54,372 nucleotides of DNA from a virus, in IMG/VR virus record IMGVR_UViG_3300042691_035573, positions 1-54,372 of that record; one strand, written 5' to 3'. The position numbers and the translations under genes are program-made. Numbering within the stretch: position 1 is the stretch's first letter; each line of letters begins with the position of its first letter. Below the pieces are notes generated by a model that searched no databases, had not been told where the DNA came from, and worked only from the letters and a program-made list of their open reading frames with translations. Below, in pieces: positions 877 to 15,766 of this stretch.

Positions 877-893
877 GCTTACAACCGCTTGCA
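858..893 (+). repeat. Helically phased CTTACA direct repeats
   Basis: CTTACA occurs at 858-863, 867-872 and 878-883, with a fourth variant CTTGCA at 888-893. Start-to-start spacing is 9, 11 and 10 bases, about one helical turn. The copies would lie on one DNA face, as protein-binding iterons or operators do. The recognising protein is unknown. Confidence 0.4.
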
Positions 894-1009
894 AAACCCC
901 ACCATGGTTAGACTAGATCACCAGGGGCCGAGATCTCCAGACCTTTTAAAAATTTTGCAGCAAAAATTTTAGGGTTGTATATAGGTCGGTTGGGAGTATA
1001 GTGGTATAT

Positions 1010-1675
1010 TTAGATTATATTATTATTAGAGTAAACGCCGCTAGGTATACCTAATTTTTCCAAGTCCATATTTACGTCAGTTTTGCCCAATATTCCCACT
1101 GCGGGATTCAGGACGTATTTACTATACCAACTATGGTTATTATCTTCTCTCCAAAATTCTCCAATGAAGTCCAATTTTCCGTAGTATTGTTTAGTACGTT
1201 TTATAAGGTCTCTATCGGTTGATTCTTTACCTTTCAAGTTAGGGTTAAAGCCCACGGTGTTAAAAAATTCTTCAGTATACATATAAGCCACTGGATCTAG
1301 GTCAGTAGAAAAACTAACTATGTGTGCGCCCAAGTTAATTTTTTCCAGTGCTTTTTCTATAAATCCGTGTTCTAGTATCAGTATATCGTCTGCGCTAAAG
1401 CATAGTATTTTATGTTTTTCGAATAGTATTTTGCTGTATTCTATTTGATTAATTGTCAGTGGTTTAATAGTTTTATTATTAGACAGTACAGTAGTAAGTG
1501 GGTATTTTGAAGTAATTGGGTTTAAGTTAAATTGTTCGCCGTTGTTATCTATAATGTAAGTATGTAAGTTCGGGTAGTAGGATTTCAATGAGTTTAAGTG
1601 GTTATTTAAGCAAGAATCGCGTAGTGTAACCACTGTATACCAAGCAATATCGTTAAAAGTGTAGTTATAGTTCAT
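1010..1675 (-). CDS. Glycosyltransferase-like protein (GT-A type)
   Basis: 221 residues. The first half looks like a short nucleotide-sugar glycosyltransferase: a beta-strand start (IAWYTVVTLRDSCLNNHLNSL), a conserved Asp-Asp in SADDILIL near residue 95, and alternating strands and helices. GT2/GT-A enzymes use such an acidic pair to bind metal and nucleotide sugar. The C-terminal half (after about 130) is not recognised. It faces away from the next gene and has its own TAAATA late-promoter-like element ten bases before the ATG. The target could be host envelope or virion glycan. Family assignment is moderate; substrate unknown. Confidence 0.5.
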   Translation of the reverse strand: MNYNYTFNDIAWYTVVTLRDSCLNNHLNSLKSYYPNLHTYIIDNNGEQFNLNPITSKYPLTTVLSNNKTIKPLTINQIEYSKILFEKHKILCFSADDILILEHGFIEKALEKINLGAHIVSFSTDLDPVAYMYTEEFFNTVGFNPNLKGKESTDRDLIKRTKQYYGKLDFIGEFWREDNNHSWYSKYVLNPAVGILGKTDVNMDLEKLGIPSGVYSNNNII

Positions 1676-1685
1676 TATAGTAATT

Positions 1686-1691
1686 TATTTA
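1686..1691 (-). promoter_or_regulatory. Candidate late promoter core (TAAATA)
   Basis: TAAATA on the minus strand, ten bases before the ATG at 1675, back to back with the rightward element at 1717-1722. It matches the 3' part of the T4 late consensus TATAAATA. Confidence 0.4.
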
Positions 1692-1716
1692 ATGTTATGT
1701 TACTCAGGAAAGGTAA

Positions 1717-1722
1717 TAAATA
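1717..1722 (+). promoter_or_regulatory. Candidate late promoter core (TAAATA), near-leaderless
   Basis: ATAAATA ends at 1722 and the ATG of the next gene is at 1730, leaving seven bases. By T4 geometry transcription would start about two bases before the ATG. A purine run (AGGAAAGG) lies upstream of the element and so would not be in such a transcript. Confidence 0.5.
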
Positions 1723-1729
1723 TTAGATT

Positions 1730-3037
1730 ATGCGATTCAAAGAAATTATCAATCCTTTAATAGAATTTGTAGATCAAAGTAGTGATCCTTCTAAAGATCT
1801 TGAGTATTTAATATTACATACTGAACTAAGTCCTGAAGTCAGGAAGTTTATTACCAATACTGTTCAAGATATATTAAGTAAGGAAAAGTCTTCTGCAATG
1901 CCAGTTCAAAGCACTGGTACGGCAATATCTAAAAATGTACAAGATCCAAATACACAGTCTCAACCTGTACCAGCGCCTATTGTCAAACAGCCTGCTCGTC
2001 CTGAAGATCAAGTAGTCAGTGAAGGAAGTTCTGAGGAAGATGAGTTATTAAGTTACATAAATGATGTAAAGAACAAGGGTGAGTTAAGTAGATTATTATA
2101 TGTAGTACGTGACAAGCAATTCAAGGACATTGCCAGTGAAATAGTCGAAATCAAGATCAAGTTTAAGCCCAAAGAAACCTATGAATTAATCAAGGGTAAG
2201 ATAAGGGCGTTAAGTTCTAAAGTCCCAGTCAATGTAATGACTGATTTTTTAAACCAATGTAAAGCGGGTGGAGTACTAGACGCATCGGCTATGTTAAAGA
2301 CTATTGGGGTAAGCAATATACCGTTAGTTGATCCCAGATTTCAAGTAGTAGCGCAGGCTTTTTTAGATTTAAACCTTGAGCGATTAGGCAAGGGTGAAAT
2401 TGGATTAGCGTTCATGGGGATTAATGCCGTAAAAGAAAAGTCTGATATATCTATAGATAATTTGCAGATTGAAGTTAAGGCCAGCAAAGGTACTGATTTT
2501 TTCATGAAAGGGAATCCGGATGAAGGTGGATTCGGTAATCAAAGTGAAGCGGTAGCATATTTGACTGATCAGTTAAATCGTGCCGGAGGTAAGTTTAAGA
2601 AGACCAATCTTGCCAAGCAGGGAGGTATTGCTGTAATAGGCAGGGCTAACATTAGTGCGTTAAATCAATATTTTGCTGTCATGGGTAGAGCAAAAGTAAT
2701 TGATGTATTAGTTAATGTATTAAAAATTTTAAACAAGGGTGCGCCGGAATTAGTTGATAATTATATCGAAGATATATCTAAATCTGTATTACCAGACGGG
2801 TCGATACATTATAATGTATTAAGTATGACCACAGCCAAAATAAATTTTGATTATTATAAAACAATGAGTCAACATAATGGGGTATTATTGTTAGATTTAA
2901 CAGCATTTCAATATGCTTACACCGATAATGCAAAGTCGTTTGTTGATCTAATCAGCAAGGGTATACTACATCAAATGTACGCTGTGGATTTTAGATCTAA
3001 TGGACTTGGTGGTATTGCGTATATGATGGGCAAGTAA
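1730..3037 (+). CDS. Unknown protein with PD-(D/E)XK nuclease-like core
   Basis: 435 residues. Residues 1-50 are a helical N-terminus beginning MRFKEI, 55-105 is a Pro/Gln/Ser-rich linker, and 105-200 is helical. Residues 215-255 carry E223, D243 and E248-V-K250 in the order and spacing of the restriction-endonuclease-like fold (Glu, Asp, then ExK). The K251-F270 region is Gly-rich. Known phage members of this fold act in recombination, packaging or host DNA degradation. A late-promoter-like element sits directly before the ATG, so a virion or late role is likely. The nuclease call rests on these few residues only; a structural protein is the alternative. Confidence 0.45.
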   Translation: MRFKEIINPLIEFVDQSSDPSKDLEYLILHTELSPEVRKFITNTVQDILSKEKSSAMPVQSTGTAISKNVQDPNTQSQPVPAPIVKQPARPEDQVVSEGSSEEDELLSYINDVKNKGELSRLLYVVRDKQFKDIASEIVEIKIKFKPKETYELIKGKIRALSSKVPVNVMTDFLNQCKAGGVLDASAMLKTIGVSNIPLVDPRFQVVAQAFLDLNLERLGKGEIGLAFMGINAVKEKSDISIDNLQIEVKASKGTDFFMKGNPDEGGFGNQSEAVAYLTDQLNRAGGKFKKTNLAKQGGIAVIGRANISALNQYFAVMGRAKVIDVLVNVLKILNKGAPELVDNYIEDISKSVLPDGSIHYNVLSMTTAKINFDYYKTMSQHNGVLLLDLTAFQYAYTDNAKSFVDLISKGILHQMYAVDFRSNGLGGIAYMMGK

Positions 3038-3053
3038 AAATAGGAGAAAAATC

Positions 3054-3230
3054 ATGGAAAGTAAAAAGTTTTGGGAAAGTAAGACTATGTGGGTTAATGT
3101 AATTGCTGCTGCGGCTGTAGTTATACAAACGCAAACAGGATTTATAGTGGGTCCAGAATTGCAGGCCTTAGCATTAACTGTGTTGAATTTATTTTTACGT
3201 AGTATTACCGAAAAGCCTTTAGAGTGGTAA
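3054..3230 (+). CDS. Small membrane protein, holin-like candidate
   Basis: 58 residues: a charged N-terminus (MESKKFWESKT), a hydrophobic Ala/Val/Ile stretch (about 13-22), then PELQALALTVLNLFLRSIT and a short polar tail ending PLEW. It follows the previous gene by 16 bases and has a good ribosome site (AGGAGAAAAATC before the ATG). Short phage proteins with the same plan (charged start, one or two hydrophobic helices with a central PE-x-QA) are common and often sit in lysis or late regions. A holin role is possible but not shown; no endolysin is visible nearby. Confidence 0.6.
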   Translation: MESKKFWESKTMWVNVIAAAAVVIQTQTGFIVGPELQALALTVLNLFLRSITEKPLEW

Positions 3231-3249
3231 TTAAGTAGGTATATAATTT

Positions 3250-3346
3250 AGAAAAAAGTTTTTCTTTAGTTTGCGCTTCGCGCTGTTCTGATTTTTGTAG
3301 GTAGGTTGCCCGGCAACGTTAAATATCTGTTTACAAAAATCAGGAG
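3250..3346 (+). promoter_or_regulatory. Structured leader: nested hairpins ahead of methyltransferase gene
   Basis: Four inverted repeats fall within 95 bases: AGAAAAA/TTTTTCT (3250-3256, 3259-3265), GCGC-TTC-GCGC (3273-3283), an outer perfect 12-bp pair CTGATTTTTGTA/TACAAAAATCAG (3288-3299, 3332-3343), and inside it GTTGCC-C-GGCAAC (3305-3317). The outer right arm ends in the first bases of the AGGAG ribosome site (3342-3346), so folding could partly mask it. Confidence 0.5.
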
Positions 3347-3359
3347 TAAAACATATTCT

Positions 3360-3923
3360 ATGGAACATTTTCATAAAAGCATATTCGGTTGGTTCAGTTA
3401 TGATTACATATACAAGGACATGGTTGAGCAAGCAGATGATAACAGTTTATTTGTTGAAATAGGTTCGTTTCAAGGAGCAAGTACAGCATTCATGTGTGTT
3501 GAAATTGCCAACAGTGGTAAAAACATCAAATTCGAATGCATAGATCCTATGATTCCTATCGGTCATTACCAAGCATCTTCATTAGAAAAACCGCATGAGT
3601 TTGAGGGATATGGAGTTGACAAGTTCCATGAAAGATTAATATCAGTCAAAGATTATTATAAATTACATCAGATGGCAAGTTTTGATGCACACAAGTTATA
3701 TGATGATCAAAGTATAGATTTCATCATGATTGATGGAGATCATAGTTATGATGGTGTATTCAAAGATGTAACAAATTTTTTACCTAAGATGCGTAGTGGG
3801 GGATTAATGACTGGTGATGATGCTTATGATCCAGAAATTATGAGAGCAGTAAGAGATGCAATCAAAGACCTAGATCTAGAAGTAGTATCAAATGGTCTGC
3901 ATTTTTTTATAAGTATTCCTTGA
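3360..3923 (+). CDS. Class I SAM-dependent methyltransferase
   Basis: 187 residues from the ATG at 3360. FVEIGSFQGAS is motif I (SAM binding), FECIDPM the acidic end of strand 2, and DFIMIDGDHSYDGVFKDV matches the DGDHSY signature of the Methyltransf_24 type often found in sugar and cell-surface pathways. An upstream TTG at 3306 is in frame but lies inside a hairpin and lacks a ribosome site, so the ATG with AGGAG 13 bases upstream is preferred, though that spacing is long. The stop (3921-3923) nearly touches the next start. Substrate unknown; O-methylation of a sugar is the usual role of this type. Confidence 0.7.
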   Translation: MEHFHKSIFGWFSYDYIYKDMVEQADDNSLFVEIGSFQGASTAFMCVEIANSGKNIKFECIDPMIPIGHYQASSLEKPHEFEGYGVDKFHERLISVKDYYKLHQMASFDAHKLYDDQSIDFIMIDGDHSYDGVFKDVTNFLPKMRSGGLMTGDDAYDPEIMRAVRDAIKDLDLEVVSNGLHFFISIP

Positions 3924-3925
3924 TT

Positions 3926-4468
3926 ATGTATGAATATTTAGGCAAGTTACTAATAGCAAATCCAATGGTGTTAGAGCCCACACATCATAAAAATGTCTAC
4001 ATGGTCATAGAAGACACAAATACTCATATGATCGGAGTATGTATCAATAGACCTATGCAAAATGGAGCAGTATTTGGAAATGTAATGGCTTCAGTAGGGT
4101 TAGATAGTGATTATAATGATATTCCTTTGTATTTCGGCGGGCTCGAAATCACCAATAGAGTGTTTATATTACATTCGTTAGATTGGTCGGGAATGACTAC
4201 AAAGAATCTCACAGATCATATAGGTGTTACGACAGATGTATCTATATTGGCTGCGCTAAGTCAAAATCAAGGGCCTGAATATTTTAGACCTTGTGTAGGT
4301 TATACAAGGTGGCTTCCGGGGCAGATTGAATTAGAGTTAGAAAGTAAAAATTCAGTATGGAGTATAACCACTGCTACTACAGACATTTGTTTCGGAACTG
4401 ATGATTCGTCTATATGGACTGCTGCGTTAGTTGAATCCACTAAGGCTCAAGTAAACCAATGGTTTTAA
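3926..4468 (+). CDS. YqgE/AlgH family protein
   Basis: 180 residues. It keeps the family's landmarks in order: GKLLIANP near the start, MIGVCINRP, YFGGLEITNRVFILHS, and ALSQNQGP...VGYTRWLPGQIELEL near the C-terminus. YqgE/AlgH (UPF0301) proteins are small bacterial cytosolic proteins of uncertain function; AlgH was named as a regulator of alginate production in Pseudomonas. A phage copy is unusual. The ATG at 3926 is preferred to the TTG at 3920. It starts two bases after the methyltransferase stop, suggesting coupled translation. It overlaps the oppositely directed helicase gene by four bases at the 3' end. Confidence 0.75.
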   Translation: MYEYLGKLLIANPMVLEPTHHKNVYMVIEDTNTHMIGVCINRPMQNGAVFGNVMASVGLDSDYNDIPLYFGGLEITNRVFILHSLDWSGMTTKNLTDHIGVTTDVSILAALSQNQGPEYFRPCVGYTRWLPGQIELELESKNSVWSITTATTDICFGTDDSSIWTAALVESTKAQVNQWF

Positions 4469-5883
4469 TCTTTTTCAGAATTTAAACTAGCCAATATATT
4501 TCTAATATCTCCAACTGCTTTTACATTTTTCACAGGTTTAATTTCTATAATTTCTCCTGTCTCGGGATCTGTACTAGTAGTAACTGCACTAGTTCGCTTC
4601 AATGAATTAATAATATTTTGTTGTTGTTTTTGTTGAGTAAAACTAGGCTCTTCGTCTTCCATAAGGTCATTAATTCTCAAAGTATCTATATTAAATTCTA
4701 GATCTACTTTTTGTCCTACGCCTGAACTCGAGCGTGTTTTCATAAATTGTATTTGATAGCGTCCGCGTTCTTTCATAGCGCGACTAGTAAAGATACCAAT
4801 AACGTTATCAGCAGTTTGAATTTTGCTAAGACCTCCGCTGATATGACTATGATCAAATTCAATTTCCTCAACGGCTGATCTATTCAATTGACTAGCAGTA
4901 ACAGTAATACATTGTGTTTCCATTGCTAGGTTTCTAATCTCTTCTGACACATATTTGTCTTTTACGAACAAATCGCTGGGCGATACCTTCACACTTAAAG
5001 GCATCATCAAATCGAGGTAATCTATTAACAAAACGTCTGGTTTTCTGCCTTTTTTGACCTGATATTCCTTCAAATAGGCTCGAATATCGTTACAATTTTT
5101 ACCTGAAGGCATATACTTAATCTGTATGCTTCCTGCACGTTTTTCCGCCATTTTTACCTTAAGTTCAACATCGTCGATTGATTTAAAAATCTCTCTAGTG
5201 CTAATGCCAGTCATCATAGAATCCAGTCGCATAGCAACTAGATTTTCACTAAGTTCGAATGTTAAGTAAACTACGTTCAATCCCATCATAGCCCAATTAA
5301 CGCCCAAGTTAGCAAGGAACAGTGATTTACCTCCGCCGGATGCTGCTGCGAAGATATTCAGTTCTCCTCGATTAAAACCGCCGTATAATTTCTTATCTAC
5401 ACTAGGCCAACCAGTGGATGTTTGTCCGTTATTGCTTTTAATTTTTTCAAGACGTGACCTCGGATCTTCAAAGTAATCTGTACCCATATCTTTATTAAGA
5501 CTAATTTGAATAGCATCTTTGACCAGTTTTTCTACAGGGCCGTAATCGCCTTTTTCTAATAGATCTGCGGATTTTAGAATAGCACGTTCTAGTCCTTTAT
5601 GGCGACTAAATCTTTCAAATTCGTCCATAAGCCAATCATAATTTTCTCTAGGCAATTGTAAGGTTTCTAGTTGTGTTCCGCAAGTAGAGTTAACTATTTT
5701 TGGTTCTGGCATTACTTTATATTCATCAACATAAGTATTAATGAATTTAGCAACATCTCGTAGTCGTTGGTCAAAATTTTCCGAATCAAAGATATTTTGA
5801 CAACGTATAAATGTTTCTGCATCGCTCAAAAACATTTCTAGAAATAGTGTTTGGGTTTCTAAATTGTAATTTATTTTATCCAT
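4465..5883 (-). CDS. 41: Replicative DNA helicase, T4 gp41 / DnaB type
   Basis: 472 residues. RecA-type helicase core with Walker A ASGGGKS at 181-187, Walker B VLLIDYLD around 284-291, and the DnaB-like start of the core (STGWPSVDKKLYGGF). The N-terminal 150 residues match the helical gp41/DnaB N domain in length. It forms the hexameric helicase that works with primase at the fork. The ATG lies inside the end of the primase gene (8-base overlap), so the two are translationally coupled as replisome partners. The C-terminus (from about 410) is a polar tail. Confidence 0.92.
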   Translation of the reverse strand: MDKINYNLETQTLFLEMFLSDAETFIRCQNIFDSENFDQRLRDVAKFINTYVDEYKVMPEPKIVNSTCGTQLETLQLPRENYDWLMDEFERFSRHKGLERAILKSADLLEKGDYGPVEKLVKDAIQISLNKDMGTDYFEDPRSRLEKIKSNNGQTSTGWPSVDKKLYGGFNRGELNIFAAASGGGKSLFLANLGVNWAMMGLNVVYLTFELSENLVAMRLDSMMTGISTREIFKSIDDVELKVKMAEKRAGSIQIKYMPSGKNCNDIRAYLKEYQVKKGRKPDVLLIDYLDLMMPLSVKVSPSDLFVKDKYVSEEIRNLAMETQCITVTASQLNRSAVEEIEFDHSHISGGLSKIQTADNVIGIFTSRAMKERGRYQIQFMKTRSSSGVGQKVDLEFNIDTLRINDLMEDEEPSFTQQKQQQNIINSLKRTSAVTTSTDPETGEIIEIKPVKNVKAVGDIRNILASLNSEKD

Positions 5884-6886
5884 TTATTGTTTCTAATTTT
5901 TTCTTAAGTAGTTGTATTTTTATCTCGTTTGTTTCCCTGTAGTGCAAAATTGTGAATAGCGTATAAATTCTTCCATAGCGTTTCACTGCATCGGCTACAT
6001 CTTTAATATCTTCTTCCCAAGGAGGGAGACTAACTGACCAATTATTTTCTAAGGCTGCGTTAATTAACTTTGCGCCAGGGCGATCTTTATCCGGAACTAC
6101 TATTACTTCCTTGCCTAAACTTTGTATTCTTGCTATTTGAGTTTTATTCAAGGTATTATGCATAGCAGCCACACCGTCTATAGCAATTGCATCTAATTGT
6201 CCTTCGACTACAATAATATATTTTCTGTTATAAGTTTGATTATCTAAATTAAACAAATACCCAGCCTGAACCTCGGTCAAATATTTTGGTTTACCGTTAT
6301 CTATTTTACGTCCAGTCCAGCCTACAATTTTACCTTGATTATAGAATGGTATAATAAGTCTATCAGTGTATCCTTTAGCAGGGGACCAATGCCAGTCGTA
6401 CCAATCTAGTTGCATTCCCCTATCTGCAATATATTTTATTATATTGTTTAATGATAATTGTTCTTGTTCATCGAGTGATTGTGTAGTCCAAGCCGATATA
6501 GGTGCCGAATATCGAGGTAATTCTTTATCGTCAAGATCAAAATTTAAATCTAAAATTAGTTTTTGTGATGACGACTCATCTTTAAGTTTCAACGCATACA
6601 GACCAATTTTGTTTACATCTGTATCGTTCATACCTAGCCAAGTAAGTAAATTTTTTGTATATTGATTTAATAAATTGCCCGGTTTCCAACCTGCGTTGAA
6701 GTTGCAATTAAAGCAATGGTATTGAAAGCCTCCGTCCGGAGTTAATATCATTCCACCTCTTTGTCTATTATCTTTACTCTCACCTCTATTATGGCAGCAT
6801 GGTGCATTAAAACTAATCCAACCGCTGGGTGTATTTTTTCTTTTAGGAGGTAAAAAGTTAGAAACTGTAATCTGAATCTCGTTCAT
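5876..6886 (-). CDS. 61: DNA primase, T4 gp61 type
   Basis: 336 residues. An N-terminal zinc-binding region has C30, C31/H32 and C58, C61 (APCCHN...YHCFNCNF). A TOPRIM catalytic domain has VEGQLDA at 227-233 (metal-binding Glu) and VPDKD at 264-268 (Asp pair). It makes RNA primers for lagging-strand synthesis. It is directly upstream of the gp41 helicase gene with overlapping codons. ATG start at 6886, 42 bases from the next upstream gene. All expected catalytic acids are present. Confidence 0.92.
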   Translation of the reverse strand: MNEIQITVSNFLPPKRKNTPSGWISFNAPCCHNRGESKDNRQRGGMILTPDGGFQYHCFNCNFNAGWKPGNLLNQYTKNLLTWLGMNDTDVNKIGLYALKLKDESSSQKLILDLNFDLDDKELPRYSAPISAWTTQSLDEQEQLSLNNIIKYIADRGMQLDWYDWHWSPAKGYTDRLIIPFYNQGKIVGWTGRKIDNGKPKYLTEVQAGYLFNLDNQTYNRKYIIVVEGQLDAIAIDGVAAMHNTLNKTQIARIQSLGKEVIVVPDKDRPGAKLINAALENNWSVSLPPWEEDIKDVADAVKRYGRIYTLFTILHYRETNEIKIQLLKKKLETING

Positions 6887-6928
6887 TATTACAGTTTAAT
6901 ATCTAGCACAAAGTTTGTCAAAAATTTA

Positions 6929-7480
6929 TTATTCAGATATTTTTTTGTAGGCAACCAAAGTCCAAAATGGTTCAACGCGGACTCTATATACATCATAACC
7001 TATGCTTTCGTAAAAAGCAGTATCTGGTCCGCTATAATGATCGTTATGTATGTTTCCGTCGTCGTTGTGTTGTTCTTGCCAGCCGTCGGGTGAACCTAGT
7101 ATTATCACGCCGTTGTTGTTTAGTTTAGTTTCGATATCTGTTATAGTTTTTACTAGTTCGTTTTCGTAAACATGTTCAGGGCCGTGCCACCAAAATATCA
7201 AATCAAATTTTTCGTTAGTTAGTTCTTTAATATTTCGTACATCGCCGTTAATAAAACTATGATTTGGATATTTGCTTCTTCCTACCTGACAATTTCTTTC
7301 AAATATTTCCAAATGTGTTATATTGGGATTAATATTTAGGCCTTGTATAACTCTAACCAATGTATCTATTTCATACATTTTATGTGGCAAATTAACTATG
7401 CCTATGTTCAATACATTTTTAATATTTTCTTTTTCATTTTGTAACAAATCAAATGCTTTTTGTTCGTGTGCTGGGTACAT
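6929..7480 (-). CDS. Class I SAM-dependent methyltransferase-like protein
   Basis: 183 residues with a Rossmann-like plan: NVLNIGIVNL in the motif I position but without the usual Gly-x-Gly-x-Gly, HLEIFERN as the acidic strand 2, FINGDVRNI then FDLIFWWHGPEHV as motif IV and post-motif, and a late strand GVIILGSPDG. The degenerate motif I leaves open whether it still binds SAM. It follows a structural-type gene with 10 bases between them and precedes primase. Substrate unknown; a sugar or small-molecule methyltransferase is most likely. Confidence 0.55.
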   Translation of the reverse strand: MYPAHEQKAFDLLQNEKENIKNVLNIGIVNLPHKMYEIDTLVRVIQGLNINPNITHLEIFERNCQVGRSKYPNHSFINGDVRNIKELTNEKFDLIFWWHGPEHVYENELVKTITDIETKLNNNGVIILGSPDGWQEQHNDDGNIHNDHYSGPDTAFYESIGYDVYRVRVEPFWTLVAYKKISE

Positions 7481-7490
7481 TAATATTCCT

Positions 7491-8327
7491 TTAACTTCTG
7501 TATAATGCTTTATTAAACGATCCGTAATAAGATGGATTATCGTTATCTGGGTCTCCCGGTCCTTGATCCGGGATATGGATTATTCGTATATGACTGTAAA
7601 TTCCGTTAAAATTTATATAATCTAAACTGGTATTACCGTTATATGTTTTAGTAGATATAGTGCTATAATTTCCGTTAGGACCTGGATTATTATCTAATGT
7701 TCCTTGTAATAACACAGTTCCTTTATAGTTTGTCATGTAGTAAACAATAGTGTGTAATGCGGTGTTGCCGTTGTATTCTGGATTGGCATATATTGCACTA
7801 CTTTTATGTTCGTATCTAAATTCGTCGCCGTTATAAAATTTATTAAATGTAGAAACAACGGTACTATCTTTCAAAACGGGAAAGATCTCAGTCATGAGGT
7901 GTAGTGTTCCTGCCATACCGTAATAGGTATTAGAATATGTCGGCAAATAAGTACCGTCTGAATCTTGTAATTTAACATTATATTGATAACTAGTTCTATC
8001 TAAGTCAAGTGTATCATTTTCAGTCAAAGTAAGTAGTGCAAGACCTTTAGTTGAAGTAGTACCGTCATCAATTATTGATAAATTCTTTTCAATAATCAAT
8101 CTTTGATTAATAGCATCAAACATGCTGAATACAAATGTTTGGGTATTGTAGACTCTTATCTTCTTTTGATCGCTATTTTTAAATTGTATCCTTACTTGAT
8201 TTTTAATTCCTTTTTGAATTTTTAAGTCACGCTGATACATAACTTGATTCACTCCTCTAATAGTAGCGTCCAAATCTAGTGTAATATCAAGTGTATTTGA
8301 GTATAAATAGACTGGTAAATTTTGCAT
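7491..8327 (-). CDS. Beta-rich structural-type protein (tail or baseplate candidate)
   Basis: 278 residues, strongly beta-rich, many Asn/Thr/Tyr, no Cys, no signal peptide. The first 130 residues (VNQVMYQRDLKIQKGIKNQVRI..FKN) look like an immunoglobulin-like or baseplate-attachment domain. The second half has NGNTALHTI, NPGPNGNYSTISTKT and a C-terminal loop rich in Asp/Pro/Asn. I do not recognise the family. Its promoter is a clean TAAATA five bases before the ATG with no ribosome site, a pattern shared with known late structural genes here, which supports a virion role despite its position among replication genes. Confidence 0.45.
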   Translation of the reverse strand: MQNLPVYLYSNTLDITLDLDATIRGVNQVMYQRDLKIQKGIKNQVRIQFKNSDQKKIRVYNTQTFVFSMFDAINQRLIIEKNLSIIDDGTTSTKGLALLTLTENDTLDLDRTSYQYNVKLQDSDGTYLPTYSNTYYGMAGTLHLMTEIFPVLKDSTVVSTFNKFYNGDEFRYEHKSSAIYANPEYNGNTALHTIVYYMTNYKGTVLLQGTLDNNPGPNGNYSTISTKTYNGNTSLDYINFNGIYSHIRIIHIPDQGPGDPDNDNPSYYGSFNKALYRS

Positions 8328-8332
8328 AATAG

Positions 8333-8338
8333 TATTTA
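8333..8338 (-). promoter_or_regulatory. Candidate late promoter core (TAAATA), leaderless
   Basis: Minus strand reads AATAAATACTATTATG: the core is five bases from the ATG at 8327, which places the start codon at the expected +1. No Shine-Dalgarno sequence is present. Confidence 0.6.
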
Positions 8339-8347
8339 TTGAATATA

Positions 8348-8725
8348 ATGAAAGATAAATTTCAAGACAATTATCCTTTTTTAAGTTGTATAAAATCCAA
8401 TGATAGGGAATATATAGGAGTTATTATTAACTTTGATCACAACATCGCCAGTATATATGATATATCCATGATCAGTGATGATGAAGAACGACAGTTATTT
8501 TTAGAGATGGGCGAGTTATGGTGGTGGGAAAGTAACCGTAAAATTCCTATCAATATTTTTCTTAAAAAAGAGATGCAAATTTTCAGACCTTATGTTAAAA
8601 CTTTTAATTCTAAAGATGTTGATTTATTATTTGGGCCTACAGTAAATCTAAGTGAAATTGCAGAAAAAAGAGTTAAGCGTAAGTCTATTCAATTAGTAAG
8701 AACTGTTAAGAATAGTCGTAACTAA
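8348..8725 (+). CDS. Conserved-type hypothetical protein
   Basis: 125 residues from the ATG at 8348; the in-frame TTG at 8339 lies in the divergent promoter and is less likely. Soluble, acidic in the middle (MISDDEERQLFLEMGELWWWES), with a basic C-terminus (KRVKRKSIQLVRTVKNSRN). The triple Trp is distinctive. No domain recognised. Its 3' end overlaps the oppositely directed DnaE-like gene by 20 bases. It is one of only a few rightward genes in a leftward region. Confidence 0.5.
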   Translation: MKDKFQDNYPFLSCIKSNDREYIGVIINFDHNIASIYDISMISDDEERQLFLEMGELWWWESNRKIPINIFLKKEMQIFRPYVKTFNSKDVDLLFGPTVNLSEIAEKRVKRKSIQLVRTVKNSRN

Positions 8726-9281
8726 TCTTTTCGCAAATTAAATTCATCTGTACAATTACAGCCATAGCATATGCAGTAGCGTGTGATTTTTTGAAATAGT
8801 ATTCGTCGTTACTTGGTTTAATCCAAACTTCTTTTAATATAGCATCCCAATTTTTTCCTATCAAATGTCTTTTAGCAGGTCTAATAATTGCTAATACTGC
8901 TGCTAATTGTTCAATATTTTTAGGTTTTAATTGTTGTAAAATGTTGCTATGTCCATTTACATGGAATAATAGATCTGTAAATTCAGTTTGTTCTAAAAGT
9001 TCCCAAAGTGGTTCAGTTTCCATTAATTTTATGAGATGGGCTTCGTCTCGAATATCGTTATACATACTGACATTCAAAAAATCAATTTTAAAGTATCCTC
9101 GTTTTTCTGCTTCTCGATAATCTAAAGATGCAGTTTGTGTCAATGGATTAACTGGAATTTGCTGACAATACACACCTGTATTATGTTTTTTTAATTTATT
9201 ATTTTCGTTAATAGATGCAGGAATATGTTGAATAAGATTCAAAATTTTTGATCTATCTGAAAAATCTATATCAACGTCCAT
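8706..9281 (-). CDS. Miniature DnaE-like (family C DNA polymerase) protein
   Basis: 191 residues holding, in the right order, short blocks that resemble bacterial DNA polymerase III alpha: DVDIDF (2-7) like the PDxDxDF motif with two catalytic Asp; HNTGVY (33-38) like the H-x-x-GV block; YFKIDFLNV (63-71) like the KFDFLGL motif with the third catalytic Asp; LQQLKPKNIEQLAAVLAIIRPA (115-136) like the KP-x-FED..ALYRPG block; FKKSHATAYAMAV (163-175) like the FNKSHAAAYA motif. Real DnaE is over 1,100 residues; the PHP domain, most of the fingers and the tau/beta-binding parts are missing. It is the last gene of the ADP-heptose operon, directly after the kinase. It could be a minimal nucleotidyltransferase or a remnant kept for another role. 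Confidence 0.6.
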   Translation of the reverse strand: MDVDIDFSDRSKILNLIQHIPASINENNKLKKHNTGVYCQQIPVNPLTQTASLDYREAEKRGYFKIDFLNVSMYNDIRDEAHLIKLMETEPLWELLEQTEFTDLLFHVNGHSNILQQLKPKNIEQLAAVLAIIRPAKRHLIGKNWDAILKEVWIKPSNDEYYFKKSHATAYAMAVIVQMNLICEKISYDYS

Positions 9282-10061
9282 TTAAATTTTAATACTTTCT
9301 AAGTCTTCTTTAGTCAATGTATACACGCCTCTATGTTGGACGCTTATTGATGCACATTTATTAGCGTAAATTATAGCAGATTCTATAGATTTTGTTAATA
9401 GATAAAAGTAAGACAATGCTGCCAAAAATGTATCTCCAGCGCCACACACATCGATAACTTCAACAGTATCTGTTGGGAACAATTTATTTTTATATTTTGC
9501 CCCATTTGCTCCTAGCGTGACAATTAAATTTTCGCAGGTTGATAAAATTTGATTACTTTCAAGTTCGTTAATTTTTACGTAGCATCCTTCAAATTTTTGC
9601 AAATCAGTTTTTTTGCTATCAATAAAAATTGGACCTCTAAAAATAGTTCTTATTGCTTTTACATTATCGTAAGTTATAAACCCTTTGTTATAATCACTAA
9701 TAACAATTGCATCGTATTGATTAAATGCAAGAGATTTTAATTCTGGATTAAAGGGTGTGCTAATTTTATCTTCGTCTACTCGAACTATATGTTGTTTGCT
9801 ACGATCGTCAATATATCGGCGTTTTATTGATTTTTTACCGCTGGTCATAAAATCAATATCGCAGTTAAATGCTTCTAGATTATTTTTAACATTTGCAGCC
9901 ATTCCTTGTTTTACACTCCAATTAGTGATTTTTAATATAGGAACAGGTGCTTCCGGATTTAATCTCTCGCAAGTACCGTAATAATATTCATCGATACAAC
10001 TATCTCCGATCAATAATATCTTGAATTTTTTTTGTTGATGAGTATCTGTCAAGTCTTTCAT
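9282..10061 (-). CDS. PfkB-family sugar kinase, HldE/HldA-like (heptose 7-phosphate kinase)
   Basis: 259 residues. The opening ILLIGDSCIDEYYYG, the block RLNPEAPVPILK and the C-terminal DVCGAGDTFLAAL (anion hole GAGD and catalytic Asp) match the kinase domain of HldE, which phosphorylates D-glycero-D-manno-heptose 7-phosphate at C1. IKRRYID and QHIVRVDED match the later substrate region. Compared with usual domains of about 310 residues, roughly 45 residues between QGMAANVKNNLEAF and the IKRRY block are missing. The start overlaps the end of the nucleotidyltransferase gene by 62 bases in another frame. Another ribokinase-family sugar kinase is possible, but the neighbours favour heptose. Confidence 0.75.
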   Translation of the reverse strand: MKDLTDTHQQKKFKILLIGDSCIDEYYYGTCERLNPEAPVPILKITNWSVKQGMAANVKNNLEAFNCDIDFMTSGKKSIKRRYIDDRSKQHIVRVDEDKISTPFNPELKSLAFNQYDAIVISDYNKGFITYDNVKAIRTIFRGPIFIDSKKTDLQKFEGCYVKINELESNQILSTCENLIVTLGANGAKYKNKLFPTDTVEVIDVCGAGDTFLAALSYFYLLTKSIESAIIYANKCASISVQHRGVYTLTKEDLESIKI

Positions 10062-10401
10062 AAAATTTTATTTCTTTACAGTATTCTGATCCTATAATCG
10101 GATTATCTCTGTAGTCGCTACCTTTAATCATCAAGTCAGGTTCGTAGTTTTTAATATAATCTCTAAGTTCTTGATCGGTATTAAAAATGTCTACCTTATC
10201 AACACATTTTAATGCTGCTAATAAACTGGCTCTTTCGTATTCGTTATTAACTGGCCTAGTAGGTCCCTTAAGTTGTTTAATTCTAGAATCGCTATCTATT
10301 AAAACATAAACATATGAGTTTGGGTAAGATTTTGCATATTCTAAAAGACGAATGTGGCCAACATGTACAATATCAAATGAACCGTTGACAATTATTTTCA
10401 T
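10000..10401 (-). CDS. Heptose 1-phosphate nucleotidyltransferase, HldE C-domain/HldC-like
   Basis: 133 residues. GSFDIVHVGHIRLL contains the HxGH nucleotide-binding motif of the cytidylyltransferase superfamily; RPVNNEYERASLLAALKCVD and the late RYSSTKKIQDI match the RfaE domain II / HldC type, which joins heptose 1-phosphate to ATP to give ADP-heptose. In many bacteria this domain is fused to the kinase as HldE; here the two are separate overlapping genes, nucleotidyltransferase first. The ATG overlaps the epimerase stop by four bases. All motif residues look intact. Confidence 0.78.
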   Translation of the reverse strand: MKIIVNGSFDIVHVGHIRLLEYAKSYPNSYVYVLIDSDSRIKQLKGPTRPVNNEYERASLLAALKCVDKVDIFNTDQELRDYIKNYEPDLMIKGSDYRDNPIIGSEYCKEIKFYERLDRYSSTKKIQDIIDRR

Positions 10402-11174
10402 CGCAAAATATAATGTTTATGTAATTTAGTTAAATCTGCACAAGTATAACTCTGATATTGAGATTTAATGTTTTCAGGCATTGGAATATATTCTATTCGT
10501 GTATTGTATTTACTAGCAATTTCGTTTGCTACATCTTGAAATGATTTTGGTTTTCCTGTACCTACATTCCATATTCCAGATTCTTTAACTTTGAAGAATG
10601 TTTTATGAATATCGATTACTTGATCTACATGTACAAAGTCTCTATAAAATTTATCTGAATTTTCAAACAACCTAATTACACCAGTTTCCCTTGCTTGTTT
10701 TTCAAATTTATGATATGGACTTGCTTGGTCTCCTTTATGATCTTCATGTGGACCGTACACATTAAAGTATCTAAATCCTTGAACAATAATATTGTCAAAT
10801 CTTGTTGATCTAATAGATCTATCAAACAAATATTTGCTCCACGCATATGGACTTCGAGGATCTAATTGTGAATCTTCGTTAAAATTTTTATTAAGTCCAT
10901 ACACACTTGCAGAACTAGCGTATTGTAAATTTACGTTATGTGTTTGACATGCAACCAACACAATACAACTAAAGTCATGATTTTGTCTCATGATCTTTTC
11001 AACATCAGTTTCAGTAGTTGAACTGATTGCGCCGAGATGGATACACCAGTCTAGGCCTTCAAAATCTGGTGGAGGATCACCCCACTCATAAAATGAAAGT
11101 TCATGATCATTTTTTAATTGTTGGACCATGTTTTGTCCAATAAATCCTTTATATCCTGTAATTAGTATCTTCAT
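10398..11174 (-). CDS. hldD: ADP-heptose 6-epimerase (HldD)-like SDR
   Basis: 258 residues. NAD(P)-binding GYKGFIGQN (GxxGxxG) at 7-15, HLGAISSTTETD (47-57) typical of HldD, and catalytic Y110-x3-K114 in SPYAWSK. FRYFNVYGPHEDHKGDQASP and the SFQDVANEI block also fit ADP-L-glycero-D-manno-heptose 6-epimerase, which converts the D,D form to the L,D form used in LPS core. The usual protein is about 310 residues; this one ends after the ADLTKLHKHYILR block, so the last 25-50 residues are missing. Four-base overlaps with both neighbours show a tight operon. Confidence 0.8.
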   Translation of the reverse strand: MKILITGYKGFIGQNMVQQLKNDHELSFYEWGDPPPDFEGLDWCIHLGAISSTTETDVEKIMRQNHDFSCIVLVACQTHNVNLQYASSASVYGLNKNFNEDSQLDPRSPYAWSKYLFDRSIRSTRFDNIIVQGFRYFNVYGPHEDHKGDQASPYHKFEKQARETGVIRLFENSDKFYRDFVHVDQVIDIHKTFFKVKESGIWNVGTGKPKSFQDVANEIASKYNTRIEYIPMPENIKSQYQSYTCADLTKLHKHYILR

Positions 11175-11662
11175 AATAATTTAGATAATTCCTGTATAGT
11201 TTCAGATAAATTACCCCGATGTAAAATTGCTTTTCCTTGTCCTTTAGTTATCCAATCTTCGTAATTGCTCGGTCTATCGTCAATTAATATATCCCCGGGC
11301 CGACAGTGTTTCCATTTGTCGTAACTATGAGGGCCGAACATCACAGGTATAGTAGGGTAATATTTCTGAACCCATAATATTTTATCATAGTATGCCCAAG
11401 GCATATCGTCATCTTTAGGAACAGCAGTTAAGAACAATAAATTCCAGTCTTGATTATCGCTAACAATTTGTTGACAAAAATTAACTAATTTATCTGCTTC
11501 CGAGGTCTTATTTAGATCTCTATATAATCTAGGATTACTTGCAATTTTTTTCCAAGATTCGTGAGGCCATGAATGAGTTGTTTTATCAGTGTTCAATATT
11601 TTTCTAGCGTAACTATCAAAATCAGCAACAACACCATCCATGTCTAAATAAATCGTGGTCAT
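11171..11662 (-). CDS. HAD-family phosphatase, 5'(3')-deoxyribonucleotidase type
   Basis: 163 residues. HAD motif I DMDGVVADFD (nucleophile and acid/base Asp) near residue 7, motif II LFLTAVP, and motif IV DILIDDRPSNYEDW. The arrangement resembles phage and mitochondrial 5'(3')-deoxyribonucleotidases. Its place in the ADP-heptose operon, where a heptose 1,7-bisphosphate phosphatase (GmhB) is needed, makes that an attractive alternative role, since GmhB is also a HAD enzyme. Sequence alone does not decide. Four-base overlaps on both sides. Confidence 0.75.
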   Translation of the reverse strand: MTTIYLDMDGVVADFDSYARKILNTDKTTHSWPHESWKKIASNPRLYRDLNKTSEADKLVNFCQQIVSDNQDWNLLFLTAVPKDDDMPWAYYDKILWVQKYYPTIPVMFGPHSYDKWKHCRPGDILIDDRPSNYEDWITKGQGKAILHRGNLSETIQELSKLL

Positions 11663-12015
11663 TTTTGATTATCACCTTTTGCTACACGATAGTTATCTTC
11701 TACAGAGTCAGGTGTACTAACCTCTATCAAAGTACCTTCTTCTAAACAAATGACCTGATGGGGAAATAGCGGAGGATTGTGCCAAGTATCTCCTACGTTT
11801 AATTCTTTTTCAAAAACATCAGCATTATTTGTTTCAATGTATTTTACAATAAATTTTCCACTTAATACATACCATGCTTCATCTTTTTCTGCGTGGAAGT
11901 GCATACTAAATTTTGCACCTTTATTAAATTTCATTAACTTACTGCAATATTTGTCATTGGTTACCCAAATTAACTCGTGTCCCCAACCTTTTTTTACCAT
12001 TCCTTCTAATCTCAT
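11659..12015 (-). CDS. Single-domain cupin, mannose-6-phosphate isomerase type II-like
   Basis: 118 residues. The cupin motifs are clear: FSMHFHAEKDEAWYVLSGK (two His and Glu for metal) and NVGDTWHNPPLFPHQV (third His). The opening KKGWGHELIWV resembles the C-terminal phosphomannose isomerase domain of bifunctional ManC-type enzymes, where PWG..E is typical. A sugar-phosphate isomerase or epimerase role is plausible. The ADP-heptose pathway begins with an aldose-ketose isomerisation (GmhA) and no GmhA is seen here, so this cupin may fill that step. That is inference only. First gene of the overlapping sugar operon. Confidence 0.7.
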   Translation of the reverse strand: MRLEGMVKKGWGHELIWVTNDKYCSKLMKFNKGAKFSMHFHAEKDEAWYVLSGKFIVKYIETNNADVFEKELNVGDTWHNPPLFPHQVICLEEGTLIEVSTPDSVEDNYRVAKGDNQK

Positions 12016-12395
12016 AAATTCTCACTTTCTGCCATTTTTAATATTAAACTATATTGTTCATATGCTTTTTTCACTGCTGGATACTTATCTTTTAAGTAAC
12101 GTTCGCGTTCTTTTTGTTGCATTATAGAATCAAAAATTCCATAATGGCCGCTGTCTTTCATATGATTATAAACTTCAGATTCAAATCTTGCAATTCTTTC
12201 TAATTCACTTTCAGCAATCTCTACAGTATACAATTTTTCTGTTTCAAACCTTGTAATTTCTTCTTGTAAAAATTTATTATAGTCCTCAGGAAATTGAAAG
12301 AGGGCAGTGTTAAATCTAGTATGTTTGTGTGCTCTTTTAGAATCGTCAATAATTCTAATTGAATGATTATGTAAAAATTTTCTAATATCAGTCAT
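12012..12395 (-). CDS. Conserved-type hypothetical protein, helical
   Basis: 127 residues, charged and helical throughout, with no signal or membrane segment. Basic stretch KRAHKHTRFN near residue 20, then long helices rich in Glu/Lys (FLQEEITRFETEKLYTVEIAESELERIARFE). No domain recognised. Start and stop codons overlap both neighbours by four bases, so it belongs to the same transcription unit as the zinc-finger protein upstream and the cupin downstream. Confidence 0.55.
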   Translation of the reverse strand: MTDIRKFLHNHSIRIIDDSKRAHKHTRFNTALFQFPEDYNKFLQEEITRFETEKLYTVEIAESELERIARFESEVYNHMKDSGHYGIFDSIMQQKERERYLKDKYPAVKKAYEQYSLILKMAESENL

Positions 12396-13087
12396 TCTAT
12401 TCCTATTTCTTTACAAATTTCTTTTACTAGTGCAACATCGGCAGGAGTTTCTTTAAATTTTTTCAACCAATACTTAACTTCAAATGCCGGAGCAATCATT
12501 GCTAATTGTTCGTCGTTCATTTTTTGAACCATAGTTTTTCCTGCCGAACTATTTAATACTACCCAACAACTAATACGACCATTTAAGATATCATGCACTG
12601 CTCGACTTAACGTAACGTAATTAAAATAGTGTTCAAACTGTGCATTATTTTCGTCTGCCCATTCCATCATTGTTTGAACAGATCTCTGCACAGCAGATTC
12701 CACTGGTTCAGTTTTTAATATGTCATAAAGATATTTTTCGTAGAGTTTATCCTTACACCAATTATCTAATTTTTCACCGCTTTTAATAACGTAGTCAATA
12801 AACTTATCAGGGTACAGTGGATTAACATTATTAACAAAACTACCAAACTTTACAAACGCATTATAGTAACTGCTGTCAGCAAACTCATCATATGTTTTAG
12901 ATTTCTTTGCATTTTGTGTCAATTGCCAAAATCTATTATAAGCCATAAATCCGGCTTGTACACGCTTTTCATCTTTTTGTAAAGCACGACGCTTGCGCTC
13001 GCACATATGCGCCACAAGTGTTTTTTCCTGCATGAATTTTTTATTACAATGTACGCAGGTATACGGTTGTTCAACTAGTGCTATCAT
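12392..13087 (-). CDS. Zinc-finger-containing hypothetical protein
   Basis: 231 residues. The N-terminus carries one zinc-finger-like motif, C11-x2-C14-x12-H27-x-C29 (CVHCNKKFMQEKTLVAHMC), followed by a basic patch CERKRR. The remainder is helical with many aromatic residues and no recognised domain. The finger plus basic patch suggests nucleic-acid binding. It is embedded between small conserved phage genes with four-base overlaps. It could be a transcription or replication accessory protein; nothing in the sequence settles this. Confidence 0.55.
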   Translation of the reverse strand: MIALVEQPYTCVHCNKKFMQEKTLVAHMCERKRRALQKDEKRVQAGFMAYNRFWQLTQNAKKSKTYDEFADSSYYNAFVKFGSFVNNVNPLYPDKFIDYVIKSGEKLDNWCKDKLYEKYLYDILKTEPVESAVQRSVQTMMEWADENNAQFEHYFNYVTLSRAVHDILNGRISCWVVLNSSAGKTMVQKMNDEQLAMIAPAFEVKYWLKKFKETPADVALVKEICKEIGIE

Positions 13088-13548
13088 TCGTATTCTTTAC
13101 GTTGTTTTTTATCAAAACCCATTTTATCAAATAGTTCTTCGCAATCTTCTTTAGACATTAACTTTGCTAATAATTTAACATCTTCTAATTTATAAGTTGG
13201 ATGTATTTCTATCAATAGTTTTTCTATTTTATTGGCTTTTTCTTTTTTGCCTTGTGCAAGATAAGGATGGTACATAGAAGAACCAATACCTGTTGCAGCA
13301 AATAATTTCCAAAGTAATTCTTTATGGTTTTTGCTTAAATCCCAATGATTTTTATTAACGTATTCGTTTGTAGTTTCAATGAACCATTCTTGCAAATCAC
13401 TGTTACCTTGAACGTTACTAGTATACCGCATTAGGATATATGGACTAAATGCTTTCTTTTCTTCATCAGTGAGATTACTATAAAAGTTATAATCTTTAGT
13501 ATCTACTGCCCTTAGTTCTCGTTTAATGTCAAGTTTTGCAGTTGCCAT
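13084..13548 (-). CDS. T4-like phage conserved protein, possible replication accessory
   Basis: 154 residues from the ATG at 13548 (MATAKLDIKREL), one base after the stop of the upstream gene. A longer reading from 13584 would overlap that gene and add twelve residues. The block FSPYILMRYTSNVQG followed by NKNHWDLSKNHKELLWKLFAATG is memorable and I believe widespread in T4-like phages of aquatic bacteria. Helical, no membrane segment, C-terminus acidic then basic. A clamp-loader small-subunit role was considered, but I cannot support it from motifs. Confidence 0.55.
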   Translation of the reverse strand: MATAKLDIKRELRAVDTKDYNFYSNLTDEEKKAFSPYILMRYTSNVQGNSDLQEWFIETTNEYVNKNHWDLSKNHKELLWKLFAATGIGSSMYHPYLAQGKKEKANKIEKLLIEIHPTYKLEDVKLLAKLMSKEDCEELFDKMGFDKKQRKEYE

Positions 13549-13549
13549 T

Positions 13550-13798
13550 TTAGTTTTTGCTAATCTTATATAAGAGCATAACATTTTCTATTGCTTTTTG
13601 TAAAGCAGGATTGTTTTCAGATTCTTTTAGAATATCTATCCAAATATCTTTTTGTTTTGCATCTTCTAGGAATTTTTGTTTTGTTAAACTAATACCTATT
13701 AGATTACGTTCTGTAGAACCAGGTAGTCTAGCATAAACAGTGTGGCCGCCGTCTGGACTTTCGTATATATATTTTGTATCTTGTATTAATGTTCCCAT
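13550..13798 (-). CDS. Small conserved-type hypothetical protein
   Basis: 82 residues. The N-terminal half is a beta-hairpin-like stretch (KYIYESPDGGHTVYARLPGSTERNLIG) and the rest is helical (FLEDAKQKDIWIDILKESENNPAL). It starts five bases after the upstream stop and its own stop lies one base before the next ATG. Function unknown. The compact placement in the replication/recombination operon argues that it is a real gene. Confidence 0.55.
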   Translation of the reverse strand: MGTLIQDTKYIYESPDGGHTVYARLPGSTERNLIGISLTKQKFLEDAKQKDIWIDILKESENNPALQKAIENVMLLYKISKN

Positions 13799-13802
13799 GA
13801 TT

Positions 13803-14306
13803 TTACCAACATTTTGTATAATCTAAAATTTCACTTTGTCTGCTTACCTCTTTAACAAAGTATGCACATTTTGGTTCGTTACCTGCATGTAAGGGTGTGC
13901 AAAGTAATTGTCCTGATCTCATTTTAGGAAAATACCATTTAACTTCTTGATAAACATCTATAATATCTATTTCTAAAAATTCTGGTCTAAAACTGTTTAT
14001 TGGATTGAAGCAAAAAGTTTTAAATCCTCGATCATTTAAACTTGTTAAAGGAAGAACTTCCATATCCGGTCCGTCGGGTTCTCCAACTACTGTACACCAA
14101 TCTAGTGGCATAATGATTTCATTATCTCCGATTTGTAATACTGCTGCTGGGCTAGTAAAACTTTCTAAAAAAATCAACGGAATAAAAAAGTAATCAGGAT
14201 TTTGATTATCGCTATTATCAAGTATAGCAAACCTCAGGTCTTCGTTTATTTCTTCTGGTAATTCATTAAGAAAAAATGTTTTATTTTCTAATGTTAAAAT
14301 TTGCAT
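13803..14306 (-). CDS. Conserved-type hypothetical protein
   Basis: 167 residues, acidic, with several Trp and Cys. Distinctive blocks are MPLDWCTVVGEP, LPLTSLNDRGFKTFCFNP and VKWYFPKMRSGQLLCTPL, which I associate with proteins conserved in T4-like phages of cyanobacteria and other aquatic hosts, without a known function. It begins three bases after the uvsW stop. No catalytic motif, signal peptide or membrane segment seen. Confidence 0.55.
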   Translation of the reverse strand: MQILTLENKTFFLNELPEEINEDLRFAILDNSDNQNPDYFFIPLIFLESFTSPAAVLQIGDNEIIMPLDWCTVVGEPDGPDMEVLPLTSLNDRGFKTFCFNPINSFRPEFLEIDIIDVYQEVKWYFPKMRSGQLLCTPLHAGNEPKCAYFVKEVSRQSEILDYTKCW

Positions 14307-14308
14307 AA

Positions 14309-15766
14309 TTATTGGTATGTTACTTTCTCTATAGTAAAGGGGTATCTTGCGTCTTTATAGAATTTTTTTCGTTCTGTTAAATGTTTTTTAGCATATTTTG
14401 TAGTTGCTGTCAAGTCCCATATTTCTACATGGTCTTTGTCTTCAGCCTTTCTAATACCACGCCCAATGCTTTGTATAACTCTAACAAAGCTTTTTCCGGG
14501 TTCCAGAAGAACCAAATTAAAAATACGAGGGATATTAATACCCACAGCGGCCACACCGTAAGTCGCCACAATAATCTTGTTATTAGCAGTTTTAATCTCA
14601 TCGTATTCTTCTTTTCTATCTTTTGTTTTTACTTCACCTGAAATAAAGACACTATCTGGTAATTCGTTAATTAAAAATTTTCCACTTTCGATTCTATCAA
14701 CAAGTACCAGTGTATTGCCAGATTGACTTATTTGATTTATCAATTTACTGATGTAAGTCATTCTATCTGAATCTGTAACCAAATATTTTAGTTCTGCTGC
14801 ATAGCCTGCAAATTCTTTCCATTCAGACGTTTGTACAATGTTAACATGGCAATTGCTTAGTACTCCTTTTTCTTGCAATTCGTATGCAGAAACACGATGT
14901 ACTACATCCCCAAGACTTGCTCTAAGTGATTGATATTCAAAATCTTCTTTAGGTATAGTCCCAGTTAATCCCCAACGTATAGGGGCGTTGGCTAGATTTT
15001 GTGTTAGAATTTTTTTCAATACTTCGGCTTTAGCCATATGTACTTCGTCAACCATCACACATTTAATTCCGTCTAAAAATTCCGCCAATTTTAGCATTTC
15101 TATTTCGTTATCGTGTGATTTTTTGTCTAGAATATTCAAACTTTGCCAAGTACAAATAGTATGTGTACGTGTTAGGTCTTTTCTATCACCATAATACACA
15201 CCGACATCTAAACCGCAATTAATAAAGTCTTCTTCTGTCTGTTCAACAAGACTTTTGTTAGGTACAATTGTAACAGTGTTTCCATATTTTTCACAAATTT
15301 TTGCCAAAGTTGCGGTAGTAATAGTTTTGCCAAACCCTGTGGCAATTTCTTGTAGACATTGGGGATTTTCTAAAAATTTATTAATAACTTCAACTTGATC
15401 GTCACGTAGACGAATAGGATTCCCTTCAAAGCGATGACCAGTTGGCCAGCATTTTTCACCCCAAAAATCCTCAGAAATTCGTTGAAATTTTAAGTCATGT
15501 GTTACCCGTTTATCCTCTAGTTCTATGTAGTAATTTCTTTCTTCTAAAAATTCTAAAACTTGAGGAAGCATCGACATGTATGTTGTACCGCCAAGGCCAA
15601 AAAATGAAATAGTACCGTCCCATCTACCTAATTTATAGGCCGGGCGGAACCGAGCAGTAGGGTCTTCGTACTTAAATTTCTTGACTAATGCTTTTCTAGT
15701 GTCGAGATCAAGATTTTCTATTTTAATATTAATCTCGTCTTTGATTATAATTTTACAGGTAGTCAA
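14309..15766 (-). CDS. uvsW: UvsW-type SF2 DNA/RNA helicase
   Basis: 485 residues. Walker A ATGFGKT at 142-148, DEVH box at 240-243, motif III LTGTIP, and motif VI QSIGRGIRK in the C-terminal RecA fold. The N-terminal 120 residues (YKLGRWDGTISFF) match the UvsW accessory domain. In T4, UvsW unwinds branched recombination intermediates and R-loops and helps switch from origin-based to recombination-based replication. The start is TTG; no nearby ATG exists, and GAGAG lies seven bases upstream. It follows a 387-residue protein that may be a helicase-like partner. Confidence 0.9.
   Translation of the reverse strand: MTTCKIIIKDEINIKIENLDLDTRKALVKKFKYEDPTARFRPAYKLGRWDGTISFFGLGGTTYMSMLPQVLEFLEERNYYIELEDKRVTHDLKFQRISEDFWGEKCWPTGHRFEGNPIRLRDDQVEVINKFLENPQCLQEIATGFGKTITTATLAKICEKYGNTVTIVPNKSLVEQTEEDFINCGLDVGVYYGDRKDLTRTHTICTWQSLNILDKKSHDNEIEMLKLAEFLDGIKCVMVDEVHMAKAEVLKKILTQNLANAPIRWGLTGTIPKEDFEYQSLRASLGDVVHRVSAYELQEKGVLSNCHVNIVQTSEWKEFAGYAAELKYLVTDSDRMTYISKLINQISQSGNTLVLVDRIESGKFLINELPDSVFISGEVKTKDRKEEYDEIKTANNKIIVATYGVAAVGINIPRIFNLVLLEPGKSFVRVIQSIGRGIRKAEDKDHVEIWDLTATTKYAKKHLTERKKFYKDARYPFTIEKVTYQ

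Follow-up and report, generated by a model that had tools for sequence, protein, structure and literature searches.

We analyzed a 54,372-nucleotide stretch of viral DNA (IMG/VR record IMGVR_UViG_3300042691_035573, positions 1 to 54,372; hereafter the window) with the focus on one small minus-strand gene, flanked on one side by replication genes and on the other by a sugar cassette (Table 1). The open reading frame (ORF) was verified and encodes a protein of 191 residues with the N-terminus MDVDIDF. A preliminary description of the locus had read in it sequence blocks of bacterial DNA polymerase III alpha (Pol III alpha, DnaE) in their native order. The protein, referred to here as the C-half, matched PHROG_11778 ('DNA polymerase') across its whole length with an E-value of 6.6e-67; it further matched two families of full-length phage DnaE (E = 1.1e-7 and 6.7e-6). 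In Pfam the only match was to PF17657, the finger domain of Pol III alpha, and it fell below the threshold; the NCBIfam Pol III alpha models matched weakly, while one of the Pol III alpha models, TIGR00594, was matched by 81 of 105 relatives of the C-half. A single-sequence phmmer search of the C-half against the PDB returned no polymerase, and a family profile was required. The profile built from the 105 relatives retrieved Pol III alpha chains only, the best being 5lew_A (E = 5.2e-5); a DnaE match in such a profile search had been set beforehand as a test of the assignment. The profile blocks were colinear on 5lew_A (413-425, 566-663 and 773-788) and on E. coli DnaE (399-420, 597-641 and 752-767), and hhalign placed C-half residues 31-137 on E. 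coli DnaE 509-642. The native order of the blocks was thus confirmed, and these comparisons indicate a homology to Pol III alpha that is beyond chance.

Relatives of the C-half were identified in 63 phage records and 165 IMG/VR stretches, spread across one lineage of T4-like, mostly jumbo phages, and the gene was a stand-alone ORF in every relative read. The same small protein therefore does recur in other T4-like genomes. Matches in cellular genomes numbered 11, all on GTDB metagenome-bin contigs assigned to unrelated phyla, which are likely mis-binned phage DNA.

The catalytic metals of E. coli DnaE are bound by D401, D403 and D555 (PMC3919608). The corresponding residues of the C-half (D2, D4 and D67) were invariant in 105 of 105 relatives, together with D6, H33, G36, K65, R134, P135, K137, H167 and Y171. 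The same residues were unchanged in 14 of 14 divergent genomes, which include phages of Enterobacteria, Pseudomonas, Agrobacterium, Sinorhizobium, Vibrio, Salicola, Xanthomonas, Stenotrophomonas and Alishewanella. In addition to the equivalences in Table 1, the alignment paired R134/P135 with R639/P640 and Y171 with Y764 of E. coli DnaE. The three catalytic aspartates read in the preliminary description are indeed kept, with the refinement that D6 corresponds to E. coli D405, a position that is Asp in all DnaE groups and Asn in PolC (PMC3919608). Since this position was Asp in all the relatives and all the divergent genomes analyzed, the C-half is of the DnaE type; it shares the C-family palm and the triad with PolC but differs from it at this residue. 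Modelling assigns the role of steric gate against ribonucleotides to H760, which lies in the fingers on the O helix (PMC8485763), and the counterpart of H760 is H167. Two features of C-family polymerases, the metal-binding Asp triad and an O helix with a steric-gate His, are present in the C-half. In its AlphaFold model, D4 and D6 lie in a strand formed by residues 3-7 and D67 in a strand formed by residues 65-70. The pairwise ratio of nonsynonymous to synonymous substitution rates (dN/dS) of the C-half was ~0.04-0.08, which points to strong purifying selection on a gene that has kept a DnaE-type active site including the gate for the sugar of the deoxynucleoside triphosphate (dNTP).

Table 1. 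Features of the window, beginning with the C-half gene and its motifs (residue numbers are those of the C-half)
Feature	Position	Strand	Remarks
C-half, putative part of a split and minimal DnaE-type DNA polymerase III alpha core	8706..9281	(-)	191 residues, PHROG_11778
DVDIDF, residues 2-7: metal-binding D2, D4 (E. coli D401, D403), DnaE-type D6 (D405)	9261..9278	(-)	invariant in 105/105 relatives and 14/14 divergent genomes
HNTGV, residues 33-37, equivalent to E. coli DnaE H511-x-x-G514	9171..9185	(-)	H33, G36 invariant; hhalign match
KIDFLNV, residues 65-71: K65 (E. coli K553), third metal-binding Asp D67 (D555)	9069..9089	(-)	both invariant; hhalign match
QQLKPKNIEQLAAVLAIIRPAK, residues 116-137: first finger helices (E. 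coli about 620-642)	8871..8936	(-)	PF17657 E 0.0015, below cut-off; profile and hhalign
FKKSHATAYA, residues 163-172: O helix, steric-gate H167 (E. coli H760)	8766..8795	(-)	H167, Y171 invariant; colinear with E. coli 752-767
PHROG_11637, conserved convergent neighbour	8339..8725	(+)	3' end overlaps C-half by 20 bases; function not assigned
DnaG-type primase, downstream neighbour	5876..6886	(-)	PHROG_47, 6.6e-44
DnaB/gp41-like replicative helicase	4465..5883	(-)	PHROG_19, 3.9e-72; DnaB_C 2e-19
PHROG_11058, upstream neighbour	12392..13087	(-)	N-terminal C2H2-like zinc finger (sub-threshold Pfam); function not assigned
Sugar cassette (PfkB-like kinase, CTP_transf_like adenylyltransferase, epimerase)	9282-11174	(-)	in a minority of relatives
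AlgH-like (DUF179) protein	3920-4468	(+)	Pfam E 4.2e-24
Second CTP_transf_like protein	16949-17374	(-)	E 2.4e-14

The C-half begins at the catalytic strand and is without the palm G-R-G-S motif (E. coli G361-R362-G363-S364) and the N-terminal palm. Nothing in its sequence corresponds to residues 1-398, about 421-508, 642-751 or beyond about 770 of E. coli DnaE; PHP, thumb, most of the fingers, the clamp-binding motif, OB and the C-terminal domain are all absent. The preliminary description had correctly listed the PHP, most of the fingers and the clamp- and tau-binding regions as gone, and had missed the absence of the N-terminal palm. We found the N-terminal palm with G-R-G-S in a second, distant small gene of these phages (~170 residues, PHROG_11127), referred to here as the N-half. 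One example is CBB gp328 (172 residues; PF07733, E = 2.1e-8), and N-half matches of 4.7e-12 to PF07733 and of 9.4e-43 to PHROG_11127 were also obtained. A profile of 69 N-half members aligned with E. coli DnaE 273-393 (hhalign 97.4%, E = 1.4e-11), and G134, G136, R137, G138 and S139 of the N-half were invariant in 13 of 13 genomes. In the large records the two proteins tiled the PF07733 palm profile, the N-half covering 13-95 and the C-half 100-193. The phage proteins resemble the 1160-residue E. coli DnaE in the catalytic triad, K553, H511/G514, R639-P640 and H760 of the O helix, with G-R-G-S residing in the partner, but differ from it in that the core is cut inside the palm, between residue 393 and about residue 399, just before the first metal-binding strand. 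A complete, stand-alone polymerase of 191 residues, one of the options raised initially, would accord with the presence of the triad and the O helix in a single chain; we nevertheless consider it very improbable, as the missing half of the palm is supplied by another conserved gene that tiles the same profile. No unsplit form of the minimal core was seen among the matches, in a search that was not exhaustive.

We then compared the distribution of the two halves. The N-half was detected by tblastn in 60 of the 63 phage records that carry the C-half. Slicko01 was rejected as an exception without an N-half: tblastn had missed the gene and a profile recovered it, which raised the count to 61 of 63. 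The two remaining records are Slickus01, the twin of Slicko01, which was not searched separately, and PP728206, a 109-kb fragment. Both halves were also present in four of six large IMG/VR records; these four measure 270-400 kb and carry a family B polymerase as well, with the N-half site about 25 kb past the family B polymerase gene. The other two (G004 and G018) have the C-half and no N-half and were likewise rejected as exceptions to the pairing, since both records stop before the expected N-half site; G018 additionally lacks the GroES-like neighbour of the N-half. An intact family B polymerase ORF of 887-908 residues was present in all six large records, which makes it probable that the separate family B polymerase, and not the split core, acts as the main replicase. 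The pairwise distances of the N- and C-halves were correlated (r = 0.82 over 13 genomes) and 0 of 2000 permutations reached as high a value, indicating co-inheritance of the halves and not contact between them.

These results also bear on the earlier suggestion that the protein regulates or mimics the host DnaE, whereby the C-half would capture partners or substrates of the host enzyme. Its sequence kinship with the palm and fingers of bacterial DnaE speaks for such a mimic. On the other hand, the PHP and the clamp- and tau-binding parts, through which DnaE contacts its partners, are gone, whereas catalytic residues for which a decoy would have no need are kept. An invariant active site divided over a co-inherited gene pair beside replication genes also speaks against interference with the host, and we regard this explanation as improbable.

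The predicted structures were in agreement with the sequence comparisons. AlphaFold modelled the C-half with a predicted local distance difference test (pLDDT) score of 89.7 and the N-half with a score of 92.5. The nine best Foldseek matches of the C-half in the PDB were all C-family polymerases, with a best probability of 0.99, while everything else scored 0.06 or less; a comparison of the predicted structure with known polymerases had been among the checks proposed at the outset. The top Foldseek matches of the N-half were likewise C-family polymerases, with nothing else noteworthy; it matched DnaE with a probability of 1.00, and on Taq DnaE the superposition reached 1.2 A across 71 columns.

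Sequence data led in 2021 to the description of a split, minimal Pol III alpha in group 2.2 jumbo phages (Viruses 2021, 13:63; PMC7824862). The window protein is a fresh member of this split family, identified by that description and by shared phages such as Atu_ph07. The C-terminal Mg2+/DNA-binding part is a gene of its own; the distant N-terminal nucleoside triphosphate-binding part occurs in the phage and large IMG/VR records counted above; and the accompanying family B polymerase is seen in relatives. Within the 54-kb window there is neither an N-terminal part nor a family B polymerase. The present analysis adds the split site, the steric gate, the DnaE-type Asp at the D405 position, the dN/dS values, the co-inheritance, the ~141-kb carriers and the conserved neighbours. 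Products of the same phages had been noticed in 2017-2018, CBB_328 as a truncated Pol III alpha (PMC5259590) and Atu_ph07 gp316 as Pol III alpha (PMC6102473); these are the N-terminal half and not the C-half. We found no experimental work on either half in the open-licence literature. Deposited records mostly call the C-half a 'hypothetical protein' or a 'putative membrane protein', and its annotation should be paired with that of the N-half.

We surveyed the gene neighbourhood of 163 C-half loci, scoring each neighbour in the loci eligible for it. The PHROG_11637 gene overlapped or touched the 3' end of the C-half gene in 122 of 146 loci, and past it the conserved order was a structural protein, then primase and helicase, the primase lying downstream of the C-half in 121 of 123 loci. 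PHROG_11058 was upstream in 157 of 163. PHROG_11637 is kept from Agrobacterium to Klebsiella phages and is a candidate partner of the C-half. The N-half has as neighbours the GroES-like gene and a T4 gp44-like clamp loader. In Alishewanella phage Slicko01, a ~141-kb, non-jumbo phage that carries both halves, an RFC small subunit clamp loader, the C-half and a primase/helicase gene lie within about 6 kb (in 524-15519), which joins the two neighbourhoods. A stand-alone 3'-5' exonuclease (PF00929) could not be confirmed as a constant partner in close relatives; CBB and XacN1 have an annotated epsilon-like exonuclease near the C-half.

The C-half had been described as the end of an ADP-heptose operon and, on that account, as a possible nucleotidyltransferase repurposed for the neighbouring pathway. 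In the window the heptose kinase and adenylyltransferase genes do adjoin the C-half. Across the family, however, the heptose kinase was found next to it in only 13 of 155 loci, far from the near-constant presence of the primase, and the ADP-heptose genes are therefore variable cargo. In addition, the pathway already owns a CTP_transf_like enzyme, the dNTP steric gate of the C-half is retained, and its conserved neighbours are primase, helicase and PHROG_11637. We consider a role in ADP-heptose synthesis to be next to negligible in probability.

Taken together, the homology, the position of the split, the joint occurrence of the halves, the conserved active-site residues, the purifying selection and the gene neighbourhoods observed here suggest a minimal polymerase core of the DnaE type built from two subunits, of which the C-half gene probably encodes the C-terminal one that binds the metals. 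The two chains would rebuild one palm active site, the ~170-residue partner encoded beside the clamp loader giving the palm half whose G-R-G-S should hold the incoming triphosphate, and the C-half giving D2, D4, D67 and K65. The O helix with the steric-gate H167 would then close over the dNTP. Since little of the fingers is left and neither the thumb nor the clamp-binding parts remain, the grip on DNA is expected to be weak and work on short stretches probable; the split core would most likely add short, non-processive DNA at or near the fork, for example in primer extension or gap filling, and the primase-helicase, the clamp loader or PHROG_11637 may help it. Primer extension ahead of the family B polymerase is the role we favour because of the gene neighbourhoods and by analogy with B. 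subtilis, in which DnaE hands over to PolC; gap filling is equally compatible. The full proposal, namely a functional DnaE-type heterodimer that has about 360 residues, far fewer than full-length DnaE, and no PHP, thumb or clamp-binding part, that extends primers or fills gaps beside a family B replicase and is linked through its neighbourhoods to the primase-helicase and the clamp loader, is put forward only tentatively.

Several observations weigh against this two-subunit reading. A motif scan and a PF07733 search of the 54-kb window did not reveal an N-half, and as the window is a fragment, the partner in this very genome is presumed from the relatives. The halves were modelled separately, each as a DnaE-like part, and the shared active site is a prediction from the two. 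The Foldseek E-values were modest (0.007-0.015), which is expected for queries that each cover only a small part of a long target. Genes of one phage lineage can also be co-inherited when their products do not touch, and a core that has lost the thumb, the clamp-binding motif and the greater part of the fingers would grip DNA weakly without other proteins. The halves may also have a non-catalytic role, in which they keep a polymerase fold without synthesizing DNA and act within the phage replisome as scaffold or adaptor. Both the extent of the lost parts, PHP included, and the possession of a full family B polymerase by these phages would suit a scaffold. Yet the metal-binding aspartates, K65, H167 and the G-R-G-S of the partner are invariant across all the diversity sampled, although nothing would oblige a pure scaffold to retain them; we therefore judge this alternative unlikely, while giving it more weight than the others considered above.

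If the two halves do form a working enzyme, it would show how small a bacterial-type replicative polymerase core can be, and that the palm can be cut between its triphosphate-holding and metal-holding parts. The T4-like replisome would gain a second polymerase, of bacterial type. PMC7824862 proposed that Pol III alpha versions of this kind look like an ancestor of the enzyme; a working split enzyme would bear on that proposal.

Elsewhere in the window we noted a second CTP_transf_like protein and an AlgH-like protein (Table 1), the latter being, to our knowledge, unusual cargo for a phage.
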